DNA of 40,015 nucleotides from Spirochaetaceae bacterium (GTDB lineage Bacteria; Spirochaetota; Spirochaetia; Treponematales; Rectinemataceae), in assembly GCA_025355995.1 (NCBI GenBank), contig JANXYQ010000004.1, positions 1 to 40,015 on the forward strand, in the 5' to 3' direction. Below the pieces are notes generated by a model that saw only the letters and a program-made list of their open reading frames with translations, had not been told where the DNA came from and ran no database searches. A program made the position numbers and the translations under genes. The first letter of the stretch is position 1. Every line of letters begins with the position of its first letter. Below, one piece after another: positions 1,317 to 36,819 of the stretch.

Positions 1317-2168
1317 TTAAGCCTTGCCCTCTGTCGGCGCCGCCCCGGAGTCCTCCTCGGACCTCGGCTGGCGCACCTGGCTCAGGTAGTCGTTGACGTG
1401 CATCTTGAAGGTCATGGGCACCGCCTGCTCGTCGAATTGCACCGCGATGGCCGTGAGGTCCTTGCGGCCCTCCACGTCCTCGTAGCGCACGATCTTGCCC
1501 TTCAGGTCTATGCTCTCGCGAGGCTCGTCCATCTCGACCCGGAGGATGCACTCCTTGTCGACGAGGAATTTCGCGAGGCCGAGTATTATCGCCTTGGTGC
1601 CCGAGAACGAGAGGTCCCGGAGGATGCACTTGCGGGGGACTCCCTGGACGTAGATGTAACTGTCCTTGGAGACCAGGCAGAGCCGGCGCATCGCGTCGGG
1701 GTTGAGGAGGATCCGCTCGTCCTTCCTGCGCGACGCGTTCATGTTCGCCTCGAGGAGGCGGCCCATGATGTCGATGAAGTCGTCCGGCGGGCGCTGGGTG
1801 TATTGCAGGCTCGCGTACTGGAGGTCTCCCCCGCCGAGCGAATAGCTGCTGAAGCCAAGGATCTTGGCCCCTATGAAGAAGCTGACCGGGTCCGGCTTCT
1901 CGAGGAGCTTGAAGCTGAAGCGGAGGCTGACCATGTTGTTGGCCTTCGCGATGCGCTCGGTGAGGGCCTGCTTGCTGCTAATGATGACCTTGGCTCCCGA
2001 GAAGGAGCTGGAGTACACGACGCAGGGCCACTGCTCGCCCACGCACTTCAGGAACACGCCTCGAGGGTCGAGGCCGGTGCTCTTGAGGATTTCCTTAGTA
2101 TAGGTAACGTCGATCGCCTTATAGAGCTCGAACCATTTTCCTATCTGCTGGCTGGTGGTTATCGACAT
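1317..2168 (-). CDS. PlzA-like two-domain PilZ protein, c-di-GMP receptor
   Basis: A 283-residue soluble protein. The C-terminal half is a PilZ domain with both c-di-GMP motifs intact: RKDER (RxxxR, residues 148-152) and DLSFSG (DxSxxG, residues 185-190), followed by beta strands carrying the usual acidic-aromatic pattern. The N-terminal ~140 residues resemble the PilZ-like non-binding domain that precedes PilZ in spirochaete PlzA proteins, which are of similar length (about 260 residues). In Borrelia, PlzA relays c-di-GMP to motility and gene expression; the role here is inferred. It heads an operon with the TPR gene. The start ATG has no Shine-Dalgarno sequence and sits about 6 nt after the predicted transcription start. 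The last ~20 residues are a charged tail (RSEEDSGAAPTEGKA) that may be disordered. Confidence 0.88.
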   Translation of the reverse strand: MSITTSQQIGKWFELYKAIDVTYTKEILKSTGLDPRGVFLKCVGEQWPCVVYSSSFSGAKVIISSKQALTERIAKANNMVSLRFSFKLLEKPDPVSFFIGAKILGFSSYSLGGGDLQYASLQYTQRPPDDFIDIMGRLLEANMNASRRKDERILLNPDAMRRLCLVSKDSYIYVQGVPRKCILRDLSFSGTKAIILGLAKFLVDKECILRVEMDEPRESIDLKGKIVRYEDVEGRKDLTAIAVQFDEQAVPMTFKMHVNDYLSQVRQPRSEEDSGAAPTEGKA

Positions 2169-12269: not shown

Positions 12270-15200
12270 TTAATCCGAAGTTCGGTTGCGGCCCCTCTGC
12301 TTGGCGGCCATGAGCGCCTTCTCCGCCGCCTCTACCAGGAAGGCCGGGGAGTGCCCGTCCTCGGGCTGGACCGAGGCGCAGCCCACGCTCACGGTCAGGA
12401 CCGGATCGGGCCTCGAATCGCTCCTCGGGATCGCGAGGCTCTCCACGGCCCTCCTCGCCTCCTCGCCCTCCTTCATCGCCCCCTCCAGTCCCGTCTCCTC
12501 GAGTATGAATAGGAACTCCTCGCCGCCGAAGCGCCCGACGAGGTCGGAGGACCTGTGCACGCAGCCGGCCAAGGCATCCGCCACCAGCCGCAGGCTCTCG
12601 TCGCCCGCCGCCCTGCCGTAACGGTCGTTATAGGCCTTCAAGTGGTCCACGTCGACCATGATGACCGCGAGGTCGAGCTTCATGCGGACCGCGCGCTCGA
12701 AGGCGAGATCGAGGTGCTCCTGGAGCTTGAGGCGGTTCGGCAGGCCGGTCAAGGGATCGACAATGGCGGCGCTCTCCATCGTCGCGCTCGTTTCGACGAG
12801 CTTGGCGAGGAGGGTATCGGCCTCGTCCCGGGCCGCCTGGAGCGAGGCGCGAGAGGAGAAGAAGGAGATCGAATAGCCGCCGAGCGCGAGCAGAGCCGCG
12901 TAGAGGATCAGGGCCAGGGGGCTGGTCCAGGGCGAGTAGCCCACCGCTACCGGCAGGGCGAGGCCTTCCTCGTTCCAGAGGCCGTCGTTATTGGAGGCGC
13001 GAACGCGGAAGACATAGCGGCCGCCGGGCAGGTTCGTATAGGTCGCGGAATGTCCGGGGCCGGGCGGCGACCAGGACTCGTCGAAGCCCTCGAGCCTGTA
13101 GGAATAGCGATTTCGCCCCGGATCATGGAAATCGAGGGCGACGAATTCGAAGGACGCCGAATTGCCGCGCCAGCCCAGTTCGAGCCGCCGGAGGCGAGAG
13201 GCGGCCACGGCGCCGATCGCCGGCCTTCCCTTCGGCGCTATCGAGCTGAAAGCCACCGGCGGCCGGTGGTCGTTGAACGCGTACCGGCTGGAATCGAAAT
13301 GGTAGAGCCTGTCGAGGGCCCCGAAATACAGGGAGCCGTCGGGCGCGCGGAACGCGCCCGAGAAGAACTCCGCACTTCGGTATTCGCCATAGAGCGAGAG
13401 GCCGTGGAAGCGGCCCGAGCCTCGGTCGTAGACGGCGAGGCCGGCCTGGGTCGCCACCCACAGGTCTTCCGAGGGGTCCTCGAGGACGCGGAGCGCGGTA
13501 TTGCTCGGCAGCCCGTCCCTGGTCGTGTAGCTCACGAAGGAATCGGTCTCCGGCTCGTAGCGCATGAGGCCGCCGCCGGCCGTCCCGATCCAGAGGATCT
13601 TGCGCGAGTCGAGGAATATCGTGCGGATCGAATCGGAGGAGACGCCGCCGGGCTTGGCCGGATTATAGAAATACCGCGCGAAACGGCCGTTCTCGAGTCG
13701 ATTAAGGCCCTTGTTCGTGCCGACCCAGAGCCTGCCGAGGCCGTCGTACGCGAGGGCGGTCACCAGGTTGTCCGAGAGCGAGGAGTCGTCCGCGCCGTCG
13801 TGGGCGAAATGGGAGAAGCCCGAGGCGCCGGGCCTCGTATCGGCCCAGAAATCCAGGCCCGAACGGAAGGTCCCGATCCAGGCCCCGCCCCCGGGAGCGT
13901 CCGCCATCGCGTAGATGACCTCCGAGGAGAGCGAGCCGGCCTTCCCGGCCATCGGCCGAAGCGAGGAGAAGGAGTCGCTGGCCCGGTCGTAGCGGGCTAG
14001 GCCGTCGTTCGTGCCCGCCCAGATCCCGCCGGAAGAGTCCTCGCGGATGAAGTTGACGATGTCGTTGGGCAAGGAACCCGGCTTCCCCGCCTCGCGGCGG
14101 TATCTGCGCCAGGCCCCCGAGGGGTCGCGCCGCGCCAGTCCCTCGTTGTAGACGCCGACCCACAGGTAGCCTCGGCTGTCGAGGAGGACGGCGTAGACCT
14201 TTCCCGAGGGCATTCCCGCGGGGCTCGAGGAGATGGTCTCGAAGCCGCGCCGGCCGCCGCCCAGCTTGCTGACGCCGCCCCCGTTCGTGCCGATCCAAAG
14301 CTCCCCGGAGCTGTCCCGGAGCATCGAGTAGACGACGTCGTTCGCGAGGGAACCCGGGGAGGCGGAGGCGCGCCTGCGCGCGAAGGTCCCCGACGCGACG
14401 TCGTACTCGAAGAGGCCCCCGCCCCAGGTGCCGACGTACACCGTGCCCTCCTCGGAGGCGCAGAGCGAGTAGGCGCGCTCGTCGGCCGTCGGATGGTTCT
14501 CGAAGGTCCCCGCGCCGGGGTCGAAGAGGGAAAGGCCACCGTACCAGGTGGCCACCCAGAGCCTGCCGGCGGGATCCTCGTCGATGGCCATCACGAAGTC
14601 CGAGAGTCCGGGGTTGCGGTAGGCGCGGAAGCTCCGCGACGCGGAATCGCAGAGGGCGAGTCCTCCGCCTGAGGTGCCTACCCACAGCCGTCCCTCGCGA
14701 TCGACCTTCAGCGCGCGCACGACGTCGGAGGGAAGGCTCCTTGGGTCGGCGGCCGAATGCCGGAGGCGCGTGAAGCGGCCCGTCGACTCGTCGAGGAGGT
14801 TCAGGCCCGAGAGGGTGCCCACCCAAAGCAGGCCCTTCGCGTCCCTGGCTATGCAGGTCACTACGTCATTGGAGAGGGAATCGCCCCTCGCCGCGTCGTT
14901 CGCGTAGTTTACGAAGCGCTCGGTCGCGAGGTCCAGTCGGGCGAGGCCGCCGTAGGTGCCGGCCCAGAGGACGCCGCCGTCCAGGTAGATCGTCTGGACG
15001 AGGTCGTGGGGAAGGCTCCCGGCATCGAAGGGCGCGTGGGCGAAGAGCTTGAAGGAATAACCGTCGTAGCGGGCCAGGCCGCCCTGGGTGCCGAACCAGA
15101 GGAAACCCTGGGAATCCTGGGCGATGCCCGAAACCGAGGCGTTGGGGAGGCCGTCCCTGGTACCCAGGGTGGAAAAAAACGGGGTAGAGTCGTCGGGGAC

Positions 15201-15284
15201 AGGGACGGCCGCCGCGGAAGCGGCCGCCGCGCTGGCGGCGAGGAATGCCGCGAGCGAGAGGGCCAGCTTAGTCCCGGTGCGCAT
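12270..15284 (-). CDS. Two-propeller sensor diguanylate cyclase
   Basis: A 1004-residue membrane protein with, in order: a signal peptide (residues 1-30); 14 Reg_prop repeats of the LWVGT-x-GGL type, enough for two seven-bladed propellers, to about residue 690; a Y_Y_Y domain (FVALDFHDPGRNRYSYRL ... YTNLPGGRYVFRVRASN); one transmembrane helix (LALILYAALLALGGYSISFF); a short coiled coil; and a C-terminal GGDEF domain. The active site is GGEEF at about residue 920, with the upstream DVDHLKAYNDRYG metal/substrate region and an inhibitory-site RSSD 5 residues before it. The layout is that of hybrid two-component sensors, but with a cyclase in place of the kinase: an extracytoplasmic ligand, perhaps a glycan, would control c-di-GMP synthesis. 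Start ATG 15284 is set by the signal peptide; there is no ribosome-binding site. Confidence 0.92.
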   Translation of the reverse strand: MRTGTKLALSLAAFLAASAAAASAAAVPVPDDSTPFFSTLGTRDGLPNASVSGIAQDSQGFLWFGTQGGLARYDGYSFKLFAHAPFDAGSLPHDLVQTIYLDGGVLWAGTYGGLARLDLATERFVNYANDAARGDSLSNDVVTCIARDAKGLLWVGTLSGLNLLDESTGRFTRLRHSAADPRSLPSDVVRALKVDREGRLWVGTSGGGLALCDSASRSFRAYRNPGLSDFVMAIDEDPAGRLWVATWYGGLSLFDPGAGTFENHPTADERAYSLCASEEGTVYVGTWGGGLFEYDVASGTFARRRASASPGSLANDVVYSMLRDSSGELWIGTNGGGVSKLGGGRRGFETISSSPAGMPSGKVYAVLLDSRGYLWVGVYNEGLARRDPSGAWRRYRREAGKPGSLPNDIVNFIREDSSGGIWAGTNDGLARYDRASDSFSSLRPMAGKAGSLSSEVIYAMADAPGGGAWIGTFRSGLDFWADTRPGASGFSHFAHDGADDSSLSDNLVTALAYDGLGRLWVGTNKGLNRLENGRFARYFYNPAKPGGVSSDSIRTIFLDSRKILWIGTAGGGLMRYEPETDSFVSYTTRDGLPSNTALRVLEDPSEDLWVATQAGLAVYDRGSGRFHGLSLYGEYRSAEFFSGAFRAPDGSLYFGALDRLYHFDSSRYAFNDHRPPVAFSSIAPKGRPAIGAVAASRLRRLELGWRGNSASFEFVALDFHDPGRNRYSYRLEGFDESWSPPGPGHSATYTNLPGGRYVFRVRASNNDGLWNEEGLALPVAVGYSPWTSPLALILYAALLALGGYSISFFSSRASLQAARDEADTLLAKLVETSATMESAAIVDPLTGLPNRLKLQEHLDLAFERAVRMKLDLAVIMVDVDHLKAYNDRYGRAAGDESLRLVADALAGCVHRSSDLVGRFGGEEFLFILEETGLEGAMKEGEEARRAVESLAIPRSDSRPDPVLTVSVGCASVQPEDGHSPAFLVEAAEKALMAAKQRGRNRTSD

Positions 15285-15292
15285 GGCTCGAT

Positions 15293-15298
15293 GATATA
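15293..15298 (-). promoter_or_regulatory. -10 element of the diguanylate cyclase gene
   Basis: TATATC on the minus strand (15298-15293), 8 nt before the ATG at 15284. No convincing -35 was found at the right distance, so this member of the leaderless group is weak. Confidence 0.35.
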
Positions 15299-15355
15299 AG
15301 CCGCGGGCGCCGGTTGGATAGTCCGTCGCCGCGGCTACCGCCGCGATTGTGGTAC

Positions 15356-15385
15356 TTGCCCCCGGCGGGCGCGATTGTGCATACT
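15356..15385 (+). promoter_or_regulatory. Promoter of the peptidase T gene, leaderless layout
   Basis: TTGCCC (15356-15361), an 18-nt spacer and CATACT (15380-15385), then 8 nt to the ATG at 15394. No Shine-Dalgarno sequence lies between them. Confidence 0.52.
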
Positions 15386-15393
15386 CGGCGACC

Positions 15394-16653
15394 ATGAGAG
15401 CATACCAGGAACTACTTTCGCGCCCTTACGTCGGCGAGATGACGGCGCGCCTCGTCCGATACGCCGAGATCGAGACCACCAGCGACCGGCATAGCGAGGA
15501 CACTCCCTCCACGAAGACGCAGTGGGAGCTCGCGCGCCTCCTCCTGGCCGAAATCAAGGCCCTGGGGATAGCCGACGCCGAGCTCGACGAGCATTGCTAC
15601 CTCTTCGCCCGCCTCCCCGCGTCGCCGGGCCGCGAGGGCGCGCCGTCGATCGGTCTCATGGCCCACATCGACACGGCGAGCGACGTCACCGGCGCGAACG
15701 TCAAGCCGCGCGTCATCGCGGGCTACGACGGCGGGGCGATCGACCTCGGCGCCGGCCTGACCCTCGACCCCGCAGACAACCCCGACCTCGCCGAGCACGT
15801 CGGCGACAGCCTCGTGGTCACCGACGGCACGACCCTCCTCGGCGCGGACGACAAGGCCGGCCTCGCGGAGGTTATGACCGCGGCCGCCTACCTCCTCGAG
15901 CATCCCGAGGTCGAGCACGGCCCGCTGGAGCTCGTCTTCACTCCCGACGAGGAGACCGGCAAGGGCATGAACCTCTTCCCCCTCGGCAAGCTGCGCTCGA
16001 ATGCCTGCTACACCGTGGACGGGGGCAAGGCTGGCGAGATCGAGGCCGAGTGCTTCACCGCCTATGCCGTAAAGGCCGAGTTCAAGGGCAAGGCTATCCA
16101 CATAGGCTCCGCGAGGGGCAAGCTCGCCAACGCCGTCTCCATGGCCGGAAGCTTCATCTCCATGCTGCCCCGGAGCGAGGCTCCCGAGTCCACCGACGGC
16201 TGGTACGGCTACTACGCCCCCCTGGAGATGTCCGGCGGCATCGAGAGCGCGGTAGTCGAGGTCTTCCTTCGCGACTTCACGTTGGAGGGCATGGAAGCGC
16301 GCATCGCCGCCGTGCGCGCCATCGCGAAAGCCGTCGAGGCCCAGTTCCCCCTCGGCAGCGTCAAGCTCACCGAGAGCAAGCAGTACATCAACATGCGCGA
16401 GAAGCTCGACGAGGTCCCCGAGGTCCTCGAGCGCCTCATGGAGGCGGCCCGGCGCGCGGGCGCCGAGCCCTTCATCAAGCCGATCCGCGGCGGCACCGAC
16501 GGCGCCCGCCTCACCGAGATGGGCGTGCCGACTCCCAACGTCTTCACGGGCGGCTACAACTACCACAGCAGATACGAGTGGGCGTCCGTCGCCGAGATGG
16601 CCCTCGCCGTCGGGACCCTGGTCGAGCTCGTGAAGCTGTGGGCGGAAAAATAA
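15394..16653 (+). CDS. pepT: Peptidase T (tripeptide aminopeptidase, M20B)
   Basis: A 419-residue cytoplasmic zinc peptidase that removes the N-terminal residue of tripeptides. M20 landmarks are all present: the first metal motif AHIDTASDV (His and catalytic Asp), the ADDKAGLAEVM bridging Asp, TPDEETGKGMNLF with the catalytic Glu-Glu pair, the YTVDGG metal Asp, and the PIRGGTDGARLTEMG and YNYHSRYEW segments near the C-terminus that complete the second metal site and the substrate pocket. Length is normal (about 410). The ATG at 15394 begins MRAYQELLSRPYVGEM, matching the family's helical start; a longer frame to 15349 has no site. Encoded alone and followed by a shared terminator. Confidence 0.95.
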   Translation: MRAYQELLSRPYVGEMTARLVRYAEIETTSDRHSEDTPSTKTQWELARLLLAEIKALGIADAELDEHCYLFARLPASPGREGAPSIGLMAHIDTASDVTGANVKPRVIAGYDGGAIDLGAGLTLDPADNPDLAEHVGDSLVVTDGTTLLGADDKAGLAEVMTAAAYLLEHPEVEHGPLELVFTPDEETGKGMNLFPLGKLRSNACYTVDGGKAGEIEAECFTAYAVKAEFKGKAIHIGSARGKLANAVSMAGSFISMLPRSEAPESTDGWYGYYAPLEMSGGIESAVVEVFLRDFTLEGMEARIAAVRAIAKAVEAQFPLGSVKLTESKQYINMREKLDEVPEVLERLMEAARRAGAEPFIKPIRGGTDGARLTEMGVPTPNVFTGGYNYHSRYEWASVAEMALAVGTLVELVKLWAEK

Positions 16654-31601: not shown

Positions 31602-32360
31602 CTAGCGAAAAAAAGCGCTGGGCGCGGAGGCCGCGCCGAAGGGCACGCCGAAGCAGGAGGCCAGGCGCCCGGCTTCCAGGGCCTCGGCGACCGGACCCCG
31701 GAATTGATCCGAGCCCCCGCGCATCAGCGAAACCTCGTCGGCGGCGTAGGCCGCGAAGGCGGCGTCGTGGGTGCTGAAGACCAGCGTCCGGCCGGAGGCC
31801 GCGAGGGCGCGCACCGCGTCCGCCACCATCCGGGCGTGCGCGGGGTCCAGCATGGAGGTCGGCTCGTCCATCACGATCGCGGGCGTGTCCTGAGCGAGGC
31901 AGCGCGCTATGCGCACGAGCTGCAGCTCGCCGCCCGACAGCTCGTTCACGCGCCGGCCCGCGAGATCGGCGGCGCCGGCGCCCTCCAGGGCGCGATAGGC
32001 GGCGTCCTCGTCGGCCTTCGCCGGCTGGGCGAAGGCGCCCAGCCGCGGCGCGCGGCCGAGCAGCGCGTATTCGAGGGCCGAGAGGGCAAAGCTCATGCGC
32101 TCGAACTGGGGCAGGAAGGCCACGAGCCTCGCGGCGGCCCTCGGGGCGAGGGTCGCGAGGTCGCGGCCGCCGAGGAGCACCCTGCCCGAGGAAGGCGCGA
32201 TGTTGCCGATGAGGGCGCCGAGCAGGGTCGACTTGCCGCAGCCGTTGGGGCCGAGTATCGCCAGGGAGGAGCCGCTCGCGGCGCCGACGCTCGCCCCGCG
32301 AAGGGCCTCGGAGGCGGCGCGCGGGTAGCGGTAGCGCAGGGCCACGGCCTCTATCCTCAT
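31602..32360 (-). CDS. FecE/BtuD-type ABC transporter ATPase
   Basis: A 252-residue ATPase with Walker A GPNGCGKST, signature ELSGGELQLVRIARCL, Walker B AIVMDEPTSMLD and H-loop STHD. It powers the permease at 32357-33367, with which it overlaps by 4 nt (ATGA). The FecE/BtuD pattern suggests import of iron-siderophore, haem, cobalamin or an oxyanion. The C-terminal part (RGPVAEALEAGRLASCFGVPF) is normal for the family. It is last in the binding protein-permease-ATPase order. The next operon downstream is the kinase set; no terminator is visible between them. Confidence 0.93.
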   Translation of the reverse strand: MRIEAVALRYRYPRAASEALRGASVGAASGSSLAILGPNGCGKSTLLGALIGNIAPSSGRVLLGGRDLATLAPRAAARLVAFLPQFERMSFALSALEYALLGRAPRLGAFAQPAKADEDAAYRALEGAGAADLAGRRVNELSGGELQLVRIARCLAQDTPAIVMDEPTSMLDPAHARMVADAVRALAASGRTLVFSTHDAAFAAYAADEVSLMRGGSDQFRGPVAEALEAGRLASCFGVPFGAASAPSAFFR

Positions 32361-33367
32361 CGCGCCACCGGGACCTTGCCCCTCGCGAGCAGGGCCACGA
32401 AGGCCGCCGAGCCGATCACGGCCGTCACCGCGCCGAGCGGCAACTCCCCGGGAAAGGCGGCGCGCGCGATGGTGTCGCACAACGCGGCGAAGTAGGCTCC
32501 CAACGCGATCGAGGCTGGCATGGAGCGCCGCGCGTCCGCGCCGAACATCAGCCGCGCCGCGTGCGGGACGACGAGCCCTATCCAGGAGACCGCGCCCGCC
32601 ATCGCCACTGCCGCCGCCACCCCGGCGGAGGCGATCGCGAGGACGAGGGCCCGGGAGAGGGCGGGCCTCGCTCCCAGCGAGCGGACCACCGCCTCGTCGG
32701 CCGAGAGGGCGGTCACCCGCCACCGATAGGCGACGAGGAAGGCGGTCGATCCGAGGGCGGGTATCGCGGCGAAGCCCAGGCGTCGCCAGGAGGCGCCGGA
32801 GAGGGACCCCATGGTCCAGTAGACGATGTCGGGCAGCTCGCGCAGCGGGTCCGCGGCGTACTTGACGAGGGCGAGGCCGGCAGACATGAAGGCCGAGACG
32901 GCGAAGCCGGCCAGGACGAGCCTGAGCACCCAGCCGCCGAAGGGGAAGGCCCGCGCGAGGAGGGCCGCGGCGGCCAGCGCGGCAAGGGCGAATCCGAAGG
33001 CCGACCCCGCTACGACGAACTCCGAGCGCGCGCCGGCGACGAGGGCCAGCGCGGCGCCCAAGGCAGCGCCCTGCGAGACGCCGAGGAAGCCCGGCTCCAC
33101 GAGCGGATTGCCGAAGACCATCTGGAAGGCATTGCCCGCGGCGGCCATCACCGCCCCGAGCAGGAGGGCTGCGGCGAGCCGCGGCAGGCGGGAGCCGAGC
33201 ACTATGGCTCGGGCCGTCGCGTCCGAGGAGAGCAGGCGCGGATCGAGTAGGCCCGGCCTAGGGTAGCGCCCGGCGAGGAGGCAGAATGCGAGCAGGGCTA
33301 GGCCTGCGAGCGCGAGGAGGAGGACCTTGCCGCTTCGCGCGCGAAGATCATCAGGGCTTCGCGGCAT
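32357..33367 (-). CDS. FecCD/BtuC-family ABC transporter permease
   Basis: A 336-residue permease with about nine to ten hydrophobic helices. Family motifs seen: SRLPRLAAALLLGAVMAAAGNAFQMVFGNPLVEPGFLGVSQGAALGA near the N-terminal third (the RLPR ... GNPL ... PGxLGxxxGA signature of FecCD), the LWxxGS-like segment VYWTMGSLSGASW, and VPHAARL before the last helices. It forms a homodimeric channel with the ATPase below it. The ATG 33367 lies inside the end of the binding-protein gene (17-nt overlap), with GGGGA before it. One permease gene is enough in this family. Confidence 0.92.
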   Translation of the reverse strand: MPRSPDDLRARSGKVLLLALAGLALLAFCLLAGRYPRPGLLDPRLLSSDATARAIVLGSRLPRLAAALLLGAVMAAAGNAFQMVFGNPLVEPGFLGVSQGAALGAALALVAGARSEFVVAGSAFGFALAALAAAALLARAFPFGGWVLRLVLAGFAVSAFMSAGLALVKYAADPLRELPDIVYWTMGSLSGASWRRLGFAAIPALGSTAFLVAYRWRVTALSADEAVVRSLGARPALSRALVLAIASAGVAAAVAMAGAVSWIGLVVPHAARLMFGADARRSMPASIALGAYFAALCDTIARAAFPGELPLGAVTAVIGSAAFVALLARGKVPVAR

Positions 33368-34391
33368 AGTCCCCTTTCAAGCGGGGGGCCACCTGCGCGT
33401 CGAAAGCGCCCGAGTCGAAGCCGTAGAATAGCCGATAGAAGGCTCTCGCCTCCGCGAGAATATCGAGGGAGGCGAATTCGGAGGGGCGGATGGCCTTGGC
33501 TAGCCAGAGGAGCCCGAGTCCCCAGCGCGTGTCCGGCTGGTCCCAAGAATACCAGTCCTGGGGAAAGCCCAGGATTCGGCCCGACGCGCCGCAGGCGAGG
33601 GAGGCGAAGCGCGGATCCTTCCTGAGGGCGGCCACCGTGGCGTCGACTCTGTCGCGGTAGTTGATCACGACGAGCAGGTCCGGGTTCCAAGCCGCGATCT
33701 GCTCGAAGCCGACACGCCCCCATCCCTCGCCGGGGTTCGCGTCTAGCCACACGGCCTCTCCGCCGGCGAGGCCCACGAGGACGGACTGCATCCAGGCTTT
33801 CGGCGGGACGTCGAAGGCCTCGCCCGAGGCGAGGCTCGCCTGGAGGACTAGCACTCTCGGCTTCTTGCCGGCGGCGGCGTTGGCCCTGGCCTTCTCCACG
33901 ACGTTCCGATAGTAGGCCGAGAGCTCGGCCGCGCGCCCTCCCGCGCCGAAAGCGGCCCCGAGGGCGGCGATGTCGCGGTAGTAGTCGTCGGGGGTCTCGA
34001 GGTCGAGGTACAGGCTGCGCAACGCGAGGGCGTCAAGCTGGGCGCCGAGGCTCTTCCTCATCGAGGACTTGAGGATGACGAGGTCGGGCTTCAGGGCGGC
34101 GTAGGATTCGGCGCCCGCGGTCCGATCGAGCGCGGGCTTGGAGAGGTAGCCGGGATCGACGTTGACCAGGAAGGAGCCGAGGCCCTGGTCGCTGCCGGCG
34201 ACGGCCGCGACTGCGGCGCGGGCCTCGGGAAAGGCGTAGGCGAGGTCGGCGACCATGATGACCGCTTTGCCTCCCAGGACTACCCGTTCGGGTACCCGGG
34301 CCGGGCTCGATTGGGCGGCGGCCGAGGCCGCGATAGACGCGGCGGCGATGGTCGCTATGGCGAGGGATCCAATTCGACGTGGTGTGCGCAT
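33351..34391 (-). CDS. Periplasmic binding protein of a FecBCD-type importer
   Basis: A 346-residue protein with a Sec signal sequence (IGSLAIATIAAASIAASAAAQS) and no lipobox cysteine, so it is a free periplasmic protein. The mature part has the two-lobe PBP2/FecB-like pattern: LKPDLVILKSSMRK in the first lobe, a long connecting helix (LSAYYRNVVEKARANAA), then WNPDLLVVINYRD and PQDWYSWDQPDTRWGLGLLWLAKAI in the second. The final Trp-rich motif is like those of molybdate/tungstate, iron-complex or cobamide binders; the sequence does not decide. No ribosome-binding site; TATCGT lies 7 nt before the ATG. The nearby hydroxylase and NTPase make a metal oxyanion plausible but unproven. Confidence 0.87.
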   Translation of the reverse strand: MRTPRRIGSLAIATIAAASIAASAAAQSSPARVPERVVLGGKAVIMVADLAYAFPEARAAVAAVAGSDQGLGSFLVNVDPGYLSKPALDRTAGAESYAALKPDLVILKSSMRKSLGAQLDALALRSLYLDLETPDDYYRDIAALGAAFGAGGRAAELSAYYRNVVEKARANAAAGKKPRVLVLQASLASGEAFDVPPKAWMQSVLVGLAGGEAVWLDANPGEGWGRVGFEQIAAWNPDLLVVINYRDRVDATVAALRKDPRFASLACGASGRILGFPQDWYSWDQPDTRWGLGLLWLAKAIRPSEFASLDILAEARAFYRLFYGFDSGAFDAQVAPRLKGDYAAKP

Positions 34392-34436: not shown

Positions 34437-35042
34437 TCAGCGTCCCAAGGCCCGCCTGGCCGCAGAAAGCGCCTCCTCGGCTCGGGAAACCTCGAAGGCC
34501 TCGGCCATCAATCCCGCCACCTGGGCCAGCCTGCGCGCTTCGACGACGCAATCCTCCCGCACCGAGCAGACCAGCACGCGGGCGCCGGCCTGGTCCGCGG
34601 CCCAGGCCAGGGCCAGCTCCAGGCTCGGCATCAGACCCTCGCCCCTTTGCAGCTCGAGACGGCCTATCTCGTCCAAGCCGAGGCACTCGACCCGGTTCTT
34701 CGCCGTTACGGCCTCGCGCAGGAATTCCTCGGCCCTGGCGAAGGCCGAGCGGTCGAAGACGAAACGCCCCAGCGCGAGGTAGCCGGCCGTAGGCAGCTCG
34801 CCGGGCTCGAGCTCGCGCGCCAGGGACGCGCGCTCCGCGGCCAGCCGCCCTCCCGCGGCCCTCAGGTACTCCATCGCGAAGGCGATGGCGGCGCCGTCGG
34901 GCCTGCGGCCCTCGTCGGGCTGCAGCACCGCGGACAGCCTGCGGCCGTCGGCGGCGAGCCCCTCGAATATGGAACGCATGGCGCTGGTCTTGCCCGAGCC
35001 GATGGGTCCCGTGAGGATGAGGCAGCTGCGCGGCAGGATCAT
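34437..35042 (-). CDS. P-loop nucleoside-triphosphatase (THEP1/DUF2478-like)
   Basis: A 201-residue soluble NTPase: Walker A GPIGSGKTS (residues 12-20), a region with FVFDRSAFARAEEF, then CLGLDEIGRLELQ as Walker B with catalytic Glu, and a VLVCSVRED strand. This is the THEP1-type NTPase pattern, also seen in DUF2478 proteins that accompany molybdate transport genes in some bacteria. It lies between the chemoreceptor (19-nt gap) and the importer (45-nt gap containing the importer promoter), so its transcription goes with the chemoreceptor. The role is unclear: a nucleotide-dependent regulator of, or helper for, the importer is possible. Confidence 0.78.
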   Translation of the reverse strand: MILPRSCLILTGPIGSGKTSAMRSIFEGLAADGRRLSAVLQPDEGRRPDGAAIAFAMEYLRAAGGRLAAERASLARELEPGELPTAGYLALGRFVFDRSAFARAEEFLREAVTAKNRVECLGLDEIGRLELQRGEGLMPSLELALAWAADQAGARVLVCSVREDCVVEARRLAQVAGLMAEAFEVSRAEEALSAARRALGR

Positions 35043-35061: not shown

Positions 35062-36819
35062 TCATGCTTCTTCGGCTTCCTCGATCTCCTCGATCTCCTC
35101 GGCCGTCCCCGCCGCGGCGACGGGCGCGGGGCGCTTAACCGAGTCCACGGCGCTCACGGCGAGCTCGATGATGAGGTCGCGTATGGCGGATTGGGCGCTG
35201 GGGCTCGCATCCTGGAAGCAGAGGCCCGCGCGCCCGAACTCGCCGTCGCGCTCGAAGCTGCGGACCGTCGCGCGAAGCTCGATGGGGTTTCGCTGGCCGG
35301 AGACTCGAGGTGGATGGATCCTGATTCCGAGCAACTCGCCGGGCTTGAGGTCCGATTCCGAGAGGAGAAGCATTCCCTGGGGCGAGAGGTCGCCGACGTT
35401 CCCGAGCTCTTCGCCGCAGTGGTCCGTGACCTCGAGGTTATACAGGAGGACGTCGCGCCGGGCTCTCCTGCCGAACCTCCGCTGGCTCTCGTCCGGGTCG
35501 AGCCTGAAGCGATGGACCACGCGGCCGAGCTCGTAGCCCCCGATGCGCAGGTAGGAGCCGAGCCTAGCCAGGGTTTCGGCCGCGTCGTTCGCGCGCCCGG
35601 CCCGCTCCGAGGCCTCCGCTACGGCCGTTCCGAGCGAGGCGTAGGCCTCGCCCTGCCCCCGGATCCGCGCCTGGACGGAGTCGATGGAGGCATTCGCCTC
35701 GCGGGCGACGCCCCCGACCCGCTCGGAGGCCTCGAGCTGGGCCGTGAAGGCGCGGGAGAAGCCATCGAAACGCGACGCCAGGCCCTCCACTCGCGCGGAG
35801 ATCGACGCGAAAGAGGAAAGCGCGGCCGCGGTCTCCGCGTCGAGCCTCGAGGCCTCGCCCCCGGCTCCGCGCGCCGTCGAAGCGGCGCCTCGCACGGCCT
35901 GGGCGATTTCGCCGAGCAGGGCGCCCGTCTCCGCGATGGTGGCGGAGCTCCGCTCCGAGAGGGACCGTATCTCGGCGGCCACGACGGCGAAGCCCTTGCC
36001 CGACTCGCCCGCCCGGGCCGCCTCGATCGAGGCGTTGACGGCGAGCAGGCGGGTGCGCTCGGCTATGTCCTCCAAGGCCTTGAGCGTTCCCCCGACCCGC
36101 TGGGAGCGCTGAGCCGCGCCCTCCGTCGCGCTCTCCAGCTCGCGCAGGGACTTGACGACCGAGGTGGATTCGGCCGCGACCGCGCGGGCCGCCGCGGCGC
36201 CCCGGCCGGACTCCGCCCCCGCCTCCGCGACGTCCCCCTCGAGGAAGCGGAAGGCGTCCAGGCTCTCGGCCGCGCGATTCCCTAGCGTCCGCGCCGCCGT
36301 CTCGGCCTCGCCCAGGCGGCCGGCGAGGGCGCCCACCTCCGCGCCAACGGCGCGGAAGCTGGATACTATCGCTTCGACCCCGGCCGCCGTGTTTACGACG
36401 GCGTCGCGCAGGTTCCGCGAGCGCTCGGAAAGGCTCCGCGAGGAGAAGCCGATGTCGGCCGAGAAGACCCCGAATTTGCGGGTGGAGGCCGCGATCCAGA
36501 GCATGTCCTCGTTGAGCTCCTCGAGCAGGGCGTTGACGCTCTCGGCTAGGCTCCGCTCACGGCTCTCCTCGAGCCGTTTCCGCAGGTCGACGCCGTCATC
36601 CAGGAGGGAAGCGAAGAATCCGCTTTGCCGCCCCGAGCGCCTCGCGGACGAGAGGAGGGAGAGGGTCGCTAGGGCGAGGGCGATGGCGAAGGAGAGGGCC
36701 GAGAGGGCAAAGGAGCCCCTTCCGAGGAACAGGCCGGACGCGAAGAGGGCGGAGGCGACCGCCGTGAGGGACCAGCGGATATGGATCGGCGAGAGGATCT
36801 CTTTCGGTTGTGCGCTCAT
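35062..36819 (-). CDS. Chemoreceptor with C-terminal PilZ domain
   Basis: A 585-residue methyl-accepting chemotaxis-like protein. Two short hydrophobic segments (about 17-34 and 38-57) are followed directly by cytoplasm, so it lacks a periplasmic sensor domain. A long coiled coil has the signalling tip [34 protein letters not shown] (about 252-285), where CheA/CheW bind. Residues ~445-565 are a PilZ domain with c-di-GMP motifs RRARR (451-455) and DLSPQG (477-482). The last 15 residues are acidic ([12 protein letters not shown]); there is no CheR-tether pentapeptide. It should adjust the flagellar response according to c-di-GMP, as described for the PilZ-tailed receptor Tlp1 of Azospirillum. 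AAGGAG lies 13 nt before ATG 36819. It heads a possible unit with the NTPase. Confidence 0.92.

Follow-up and report, generated by a model that had tools for sequence, protein, structure and literature searches.

A spirochaete chemoreceptor family carrying an intact PilZ domain at a fixed distance from the end of its signalling bundle

Fusions of a chemoreceptor (MCP) signalling domain to a PilZ domain are already known from alphaproteobacteria, as the preliminary description of the present locus had pointed out; Tlp1, Aer and Cbp1 are described examples (PMC6454048, PMC6406031). Cbp1 of Azorhizobium caulinodans (AZC_3349) is reported to carry a C-terminal PilZ domain, its sole recognised input, after an MCP signalling domain, and to bind c-di-GMP with a KD of about 15 uM, for which the RxxxR motif is needed (PMC6454048). 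Tlp1 of Azospirillum brasilense is described as a membrane-anchored receptor with a C-terminal, c-di-GMP-binding PilZ domain (PMC6406031, PMC6454048), and its sensitivity is reported to be regulated by that binding (PMC6406031). Aer of the same species (AZOBR_p280026) is described as combining a membrane anchor, a signalling domain and a C-terminal PilZ domain (PMC6406031). For spirochaetes, a CheW-CheR-like fusion is given as the architectural mark of the F2 system in an account of Treponema denticola arrays (PMC7666581). Judged by titles and abstract openings, none of the papers listed seems to describe a spirochaete MCP-PilZ fusion; the part of PMC12943098 drawn on here mentions an MCP fusion for DUF3391 only, and the part of PMC10333796 drawn on mentions no spirochaete MCP-PilZ protein.

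The receptor analyzed here is encoded in a window of 40,015 nt (the whole stretch of DNA under study, which is the whole of contig C103) from a 4.5 Mb spirochaete genome in 138 contigs that is 95% complete. Its ORF begins with ATG and encodes, in order, a membrane hairpin, a chemoreceptor signalling bundle and a C-terminal PilZ domain (Table 1). Two Pfam families match above cut-off, MCPsignal (residues 218-372, E 6.6e-22, 78.6 bits against a cut-off of 34.6) and PilZ (residues 451-551, E 2.1e-9, 38.1 bits against 22.5). The sole further Pfam family at E<=1 is DUF5693 (E 0.11, below cut-off), and no periplasmic, PAS or HAMP domain was detected by Pfam at that threshold; ten NCBIfam families reach E<=1, every one below its cut-off and seven of them other chemoreceptors. 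Compared by description, the receptor is like Cbp1 in having a signalling domain and then a C-terminal PilZ domain as its only recognised input, but Cbp1 is soluble and without a transmembrane region, whereas the spirochaete protein is membrane-anchored through a hydrophobic hairpin (residues 11-57) and has a base motif and an acidic tail of its own. By the same kind of comparison, it shares the membrane anchor and C-terminal PilZ domain of Tlp1 but not its periplasmic sensory domain, and the anchor, signalling domain and PilZ domain of Aer, whose N-terminal PAS domain and HAMP domain were not detected in it. Because each described type has a feature that is unmatched here (the receptor has no separate sensor, and it is membrane-anchored), we regard it as a variant apart from all three. 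New in this locus are a spirochaete family with a majority-length bundle and a PilZ domain at a fixed distance from the bundle end, as well as a third kind of signalling tip, a family-only base motif, an acidic tail, and the loss of a glutamate pair at the expected methylation site.

Table 1. Coordinates of the MCP-PilZ receptor gene and its features in the window.
Feature	Receptor residues	Window position	Strand	Basis
Gene, 585-aa MCP-PilZ chemoreceptor		35062..36819 (stop codon included)	minus	ORF, Pfam, relatives
Membrane hairpin, loop ~4 residues	~11-57	36649..36789	minus	Full model, hydropathy scan
Chemoreceptor coiled-coil hairpin	~106-440	35500..36504	minus	Pfam MCPsignal, structure match, gap-free alignment
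Family-only base motif S..KF..FS.DI.FS, N-terminal arm	112-126	36442..36486	minus	Pattern, low entropy
Signalling tip	251-287	35959..36069	minus	Alignment; N0, E+4 and V+17 invariant in 13 rows
C-terminal arm end and fixed linker to PilZ	417-450	35470..35571	minus	+176 aromatic, invariant residues
PilZ domain	451-551	35167..35469	minus	Pfam, predicted fold
c-di-GMP motif RxxxR	R451, R455	35455..35469	minus	Invariant, 14/14 rows
c-di-GMP motif DxSxxG	D477, S479, G482	35374..35391	minus	Invariant, 14/14 rows
Acidic C-terminal tail	574-585	35065..35100	minus	Acidic-residue count

The family alignment comprises 13 rows, the window receptor and its relatives, one of which (L069) is truncated at the N-terminus; a fragment of 215-229 residues (L064/L088) was left out of it and figures in a separate 14-row PilZ alignment of the window receptor and 13 relatives. 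Across residues 95-553 the 13 rows contain zero inserted columns, two rows being one residue short each and one truncated. Low-entropy islands lie at the base of the N-terminal arm (106-135), at the tip (241-285) and at the arm end and linker (421-435), and further conserved islands at RxxxR to DxSxxG (451-480) and in the acidic tail. For comparison, the genome encodes 38 receptors over the family cut-off including the MCP-PilZ receptor (from 45 match rows, of which four are second pieces and three fall below the cut-off). BLAST matches of the latter to the 37 others are weak, the best having 46% over 96 residues (E 7.9e-16), and seldom extend beyond the tip region. The others form two main tip classes, type A (n=9) and type B (n=26), which omit two receptors, L018, whose sequence gives no standard tip match, and L074, whose tip is unusual.

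The PilZ domain has the hallmarks of a c-di-GMP-binding module. In the PilZ-region alignment 18 of 139 columns are invariant, including R451, R455, D477, S479 and G482, and the chance that all five motif residues would be invariant is approximately 2e-5 when columns are taken as exchangeable and rows treated as unrelated. The RRARR named in the preliminary description corresponds to residues 451-455, and its account of a chemoreceptor with an intact C-terminal PilZ domain agrees with the two Pfam domains and with the invariance of the motifs in 14 of 14 rows. A model of the domain (pLDDT 80.9, pTM 0.74) matches c-di-GMP-bound Alg44 (4rt1; Z 11.6, rmsd 2.7 over 97) and c-di-GMP-bound YcgR (5y6g; Z 10.8, rmsd 2.6 over 97), so that a PilZ beta-barrel fold is predicted; a profile of the PilZ alignment gives weak sequence matches to solved structures (best E 0.059). 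The last 12 residues of the protein contain five to eight acidic residues in all 13 family rows, and at least five in just 4 of the 35 classed MCPs. It is very improbable, in our estimate, that another protein docks on the PilZ domain and that this domain binds no c-di-GMP in vivo: non-canonical PilZ scaffolds are reported to exist (PMC10333796), and either YNL (460-462), likewise invariant in the family, or the conserved acidic tail could be the docking surface, but the five motif residues are invariant in every row despite full-length identities that fall to 25%, and the 36 GGDEF matches in the genome could supply c-di-GMP. Motifs and predicted fold thus suggest that the receptor PilZ domain binds c-di-GMP.

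The N-terminus leaves little to sense the outside of the cell. In the full-length model, whose overall confidence is low (pTM 0.32), helices at 11-30 and 35-74 are separated by a four-residue gap, with low pLDDT there, and since the N-terminus is a helical hairpin with so short a gap it has no room for a periplasmic sensor. The absence of such a sensor had been proposed beforehand, and both the Pfam search and the loop length bear it out. A crude hydropathy scan finds a single segment in the window receptor (30-48); of the 12 family rows with an N-terminus, eight have two or more. The hairpin sequence varies freely within the family (mean column entropy ~2.1 bits), and region 57-89, where a degenerate HAMP domain could lie, is of low confidence in the full model. 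These data also weigh on a Tlp1-like arrangement, in which the membrane hairpin or juxtamembrane segment would perceive the stimulus (for example, membrane energy state) and the PilZ domain would tune sensitivity only. Such an arrangement has a precedent in the regulation of Azospirillum Tlp1 by c-di-GMP on its PilZ domain (PMC6406031) and could use the roughly HAMP-size segment between TM2 and the bundle. We nevertheless consider it improbable, since sequence variation over residues 1-90 is among the highest in the protein (2.06-2.49 bits per block of 15 residues, in a stretch of the alignment rich in gaps), which argues against a sensor there, whereas the linker and PilZ blocks 421-435 and 451-480 are among the best conserved (0.87-1.23 bits).

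Between the hairpin and the PilZ domain lies a bundle of ordinary receptor length. Residues 118-424 of the full model match the Thermotoga chemoreceptor 2ch7 (Z 16.5, rmsd 3.4 over 307), a match to be read against scores of Z 12-16 for unrelated long coiled coils in the same list. The pattern [KR]F..F[SA].D within the base motif occurs in 12 of the 13 family rows, the 13th (L069) being truncated before it, whereas the 35 classed MCPs encoded alongside the window receptor all lack it; column entropy in the motif is 1.1-1.2 bits. In the arm end and linker, Y423, L424, G428 and V434 are invariant, and F438 is the aromatic residue at +176 counted from the tip asparagine, N262. An aromatic residue at +176 is present in 12/13 family rows, in 22/26 type-B MCPs, where it sits close to the bundle end, and in none of the five type-A MCPs that are long enough, and the first arginine of RxxxR follows 13 residues past it. 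On the other side of the tip, the distance from TM2 is 207-217 residues in the eight family rows with two predicted segments, compared with 204-220 in 20/26 type-B and 156-176 in 7/9 type-A receptors; these distances derive from the crude hydropathy scan, with six type-B and two type-A receptors outside the quoted ranges and with the value for L077 reckoned by hand, ignoring a spurious third segment. The four one-segment family rows have TM-to-tip distances of 206-233. The receptor looks like a full-length, majority-class (type-B) bundle with a PilZ domain at its end at a fixed distance, and because the bundle lengths match it could share an array with type-B receptors. Given that the hairpin is antiparallel, the base motif, the arm end and the PilZ domain would be in mutual contact.

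The signalling tip of a chemoreceptor is the part that binds CheA and CheW. In this receptor it carries an NxxIEAAxAGxxGxGF core, while type-A tips read LALNAAIEAARAG and type-B tips are mostly LAMNxxIEAAHAG. Position -5 is H, R or S in the family and N in 33/35 classed receptors; position -1 is T, V or I in the family and L or M in all 35; position +7 is R in 12/13 family rows and H in all 26 type-B receptors; and position +10 is E/D in a single family row of 13, compared with 30 of the 35. The family tip is a third class in the genome. By Tsr numbering, we take positions -5, -1 and +7 to be trimer-contact positions, and as the tip departs from both classes at -5 and -1, its coupling to CheA and CheW may be altered. 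The type-B receptors are probably the F2 receptors of this genome, which has a CheW-CheR fusion; the MCP-PilZ receptor equals them in bundle length, but its tip is without the LAMNxxIEAAHAG signature and a PilZ domain is present. It is length-compatible with F2 receptors and, because the tip signature differs, is not filed as one.

The bundle also differs from the other receptors at predicted methylation positions. Glutamate or glutamine at -71 is found in 0/13 family rows, 9/9 type-A and 19/26 type-B receptors, and at -70, presumably the counterpart of Tsr methylation site 311, in 2/13, 8/9 and 24/26, respectively. A consensus methylation site is present in all nine type-A receptors, in 23/26 type-B receptors and in 5/13 family rows (type B against family, Fisher p=0.002, with rows that are not independent); none was found in the window receptor. 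At +140, E/Q occurs in 7/13 family rows (E402 in the window receptor) and in 16/26 type-B receptors. Because the glutamate pair conserved in other receptors is missing at the predicted methylation position, the response of this receptor may adapt weakly or not at all; the retention of E402 speaks against a total loss of methylation. Other C-terminal features occur among the receptors of the genome. Four of the nine type-A receptors (L003, L013, L019 and L022) have [DE]FEEF as their last residues, which may be a tether pentapeptide of the NWETF kind, and two MCPs, L073 and L021, whose tips lie at 272 of 803 and 412 of 740, respectively, continue in long stretches past the bundle, so that other C-terminal receptor extensions are present as well.

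CheA and CheW, on whose presence in the genome the preliminary description had made the receptor reading depend, are both encoded. The six CheW-domain matches are three CheW proteins, a CheW-CheR fusion, a complete CheA and the apparent end of a second CheA. On contig C117, a 706-aa CheA is followed by CheR-like and CheB-like genes (assigned by eye) and then CheW, while the edge of C133 carries the apparent CheA end (also by eye) followed by the 436-aa CheW-CheR fusion. All 15 genomes searched, the 14 carriers of the MCP-PilZ family among them, have a CheA match at E<=1e-50, and 12 of the 14 carriers have at least two CheA-like matches (the exceptions are G000 and G427). It is conceivable, if unlikely, that the receptor feeds a non-flagellar chemosensory pathway or is a c-di-GMP-controlled structural part of the array and not a signal input. 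The distinct tip with its changed contact positions is in keeping with this, as are the rarity of E/D at +10, the multiple CheA-like matches of most carriers and, here, the complete CheA on C117 besides an apparent second one on C133, but the agreement in bundle length with the majority receptors speaks for a place in one array layer with them.

The computed domain order, intact motifs, PilZ fold, bundle length, fixed linker and genomic CheA and CheW lead us to consider it likely that the protein is a chemoreceptor anchored in the inner membrane and that c-di-GMP from the cytoplasm is its input, with binding at the PilZ domain shifting CheA activity and perhaps with weak or no adaptation; binding, coupling, array membership and the direction of output we infer. 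Binding of c-di-GMP to RxxxR and DxSxxG would re-order the short linker (residues 440-455) and so displace the PilZ barrel relative to the foot of the four-helix bundle, the expected site of the base motif (112-126) and the arm end (417-440). The change would be carried to the tip and alter CheA activity, and with it reversals or swimming bias. The receptor could sit in the type-B receptor array and, adapting weakly or not at all, would act as a level sensor and not a gradient sensor. More tentatively, the family could be a spirochaete-specific class through which the array receives the absolute c-di-GMP level without methylation-based adaptation, with its own tip chemistry and with the acidic tail as a docking site. 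Environment-driven c-di-GMP would then set a standing swimming bias of the whole array, by a route other than a YcgR-type motor brake; we think this extended version possible but doubtful. If c-di-GMP is indeed the input, spirochaetes as well would have a direct connection from this messenger to their chemoreceptor arrays, in a reduced form without another sensor and perhaps independently of the alphaproteobacterial cases, and an internal state instead of an outside chemical would probably steer swimming. Such a receptor would allow two questions that are mixed in Tlp1 to be asked apart: how c-di-GMP by itself acts on CheA, and whether a standing bias can be set by a receptor that lacks normal methylation sites.

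The family is rare, patchy and old within the order. With the receptor as query, at least 7 of 392 genomes of a phylum sample, its own included, matched at E<=1e-30, and a seven-row profile (the receptor and six relatives) matched at least 14 of 390 genomes of an order sample, again with its own, at E<=1e-50; the fusion had been expected to be uncommon among spirochaetes, and these counts accord with that. The order-sample matches span at least 11 of 91 genera, and two of the 13 other genomes matched (G399 and G405) give fragments only; this recurrence shows that the fusion is no chance product. A profile of the PilZ domain plus linker matched at least 16 of the 392 phylum genomes, comprising seven complete fusions (the window copy included), seven small stand-alone PilZ proteins, a contig-edge fragment (G344) and a broken copy in another order (G360). 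The G360 copy (L102, on G360:C29) is a decayed relative in which the base motif and PilZ domain are readable and the tip is unreadable in that frame; it is interrupted by a stop and by frame changes, unless these are assembly errors.

Among the matches listed, the stand-alone Spirochaetota PilZ proteins are the closest unfused sequences (E 1.4e-11 to 8.5e-14). They have a similar layout around the motifs, but are single-domain ORFs of 112-173 aa without a receptor part. Since these closest unfused relatives are spirochaete proteins, recruitment of the PilZ part within the phylum is hinted at. Beyond the phylum, the PilZ-plus-linker region was searched for in plasmids at the protein level, with no match in 72,556 plasmid records. 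A genome scan with a single peptide pattern gave nine pattern matches, of which five were relatives, all in spirochaete MAGs, a result that leaves room for copies elsewhere. A tree of the 13 receptor rows has two old branches, with one long row (L082) unsurely placed. The window copy is nearest to the copy of G379, a genome of a different family (69% identity), and is just 29% and 32% identical to the own-family copies of G245 and G399, respectively. RpoB identities run in the opposite direction (92% to G399, 90% to G245 and 85% to G379), and for the C117 CheA the identities are 69% to the G399 match and 60% to the G379 match, the best match in G245 being 44% over part of the protein. This reversal between receptor and RpoB points to exchange of the receptor gene, or to its duplication and loss, within the order; the c-di-GMP motifs have been retained despite such a history.

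The surroundings of the gene offer no conserved partner. When 14 family loci were compared all against all, no conserved neighbour or operon partner was seen; besides the receptor, only ABC ATPases, histidine kinases, other MCPs and antisense frames of the receptor gene recur in at least four of the 14. The preliminary description had linked the diguanylate cyclase of the window to chemotaxis through this receptor. That link found no support: the cyclase gene lies ~20 kb away and is one of 36 GGDEF matches in the genome, and with no conserved neighbourhood in the 14 loci it was dropped as a candidate partner, so that cyclase and receptor are connected only by their presence in one cell. The cyclase itself (12270-15395, minus strand) is a Reg_prop/Y_Y_Y propeller sensor fused to GGDEF without a kinase domain, with a GGEEF catalytic motif and an upstream RxxD inhibitory site, both of which appear intact by eye. 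No RNA element was found in the 40,015-nt window at Rfam gathering scores. Directly downstream of the receptor gene is a gene for a P-loop NTPase of the PF03266 kind (34437-35042, minus strand), which adjoins a FecCD/ABC/binding-protein uptake set (31602-34391); this neighbourhood is not conserved in relatives. Of the seven PilZ matches in the genome, a second one is encoded in the window besides the receptor, a 283-aa protein (1317-2168, minus strand) with an N-terminal extra region, RKDER...DLSFSG motifs and, by eye, a PlzA/YcgR-like layout, and contig C103 thus carries two PilZ proteins and one diguanylate cyclase.
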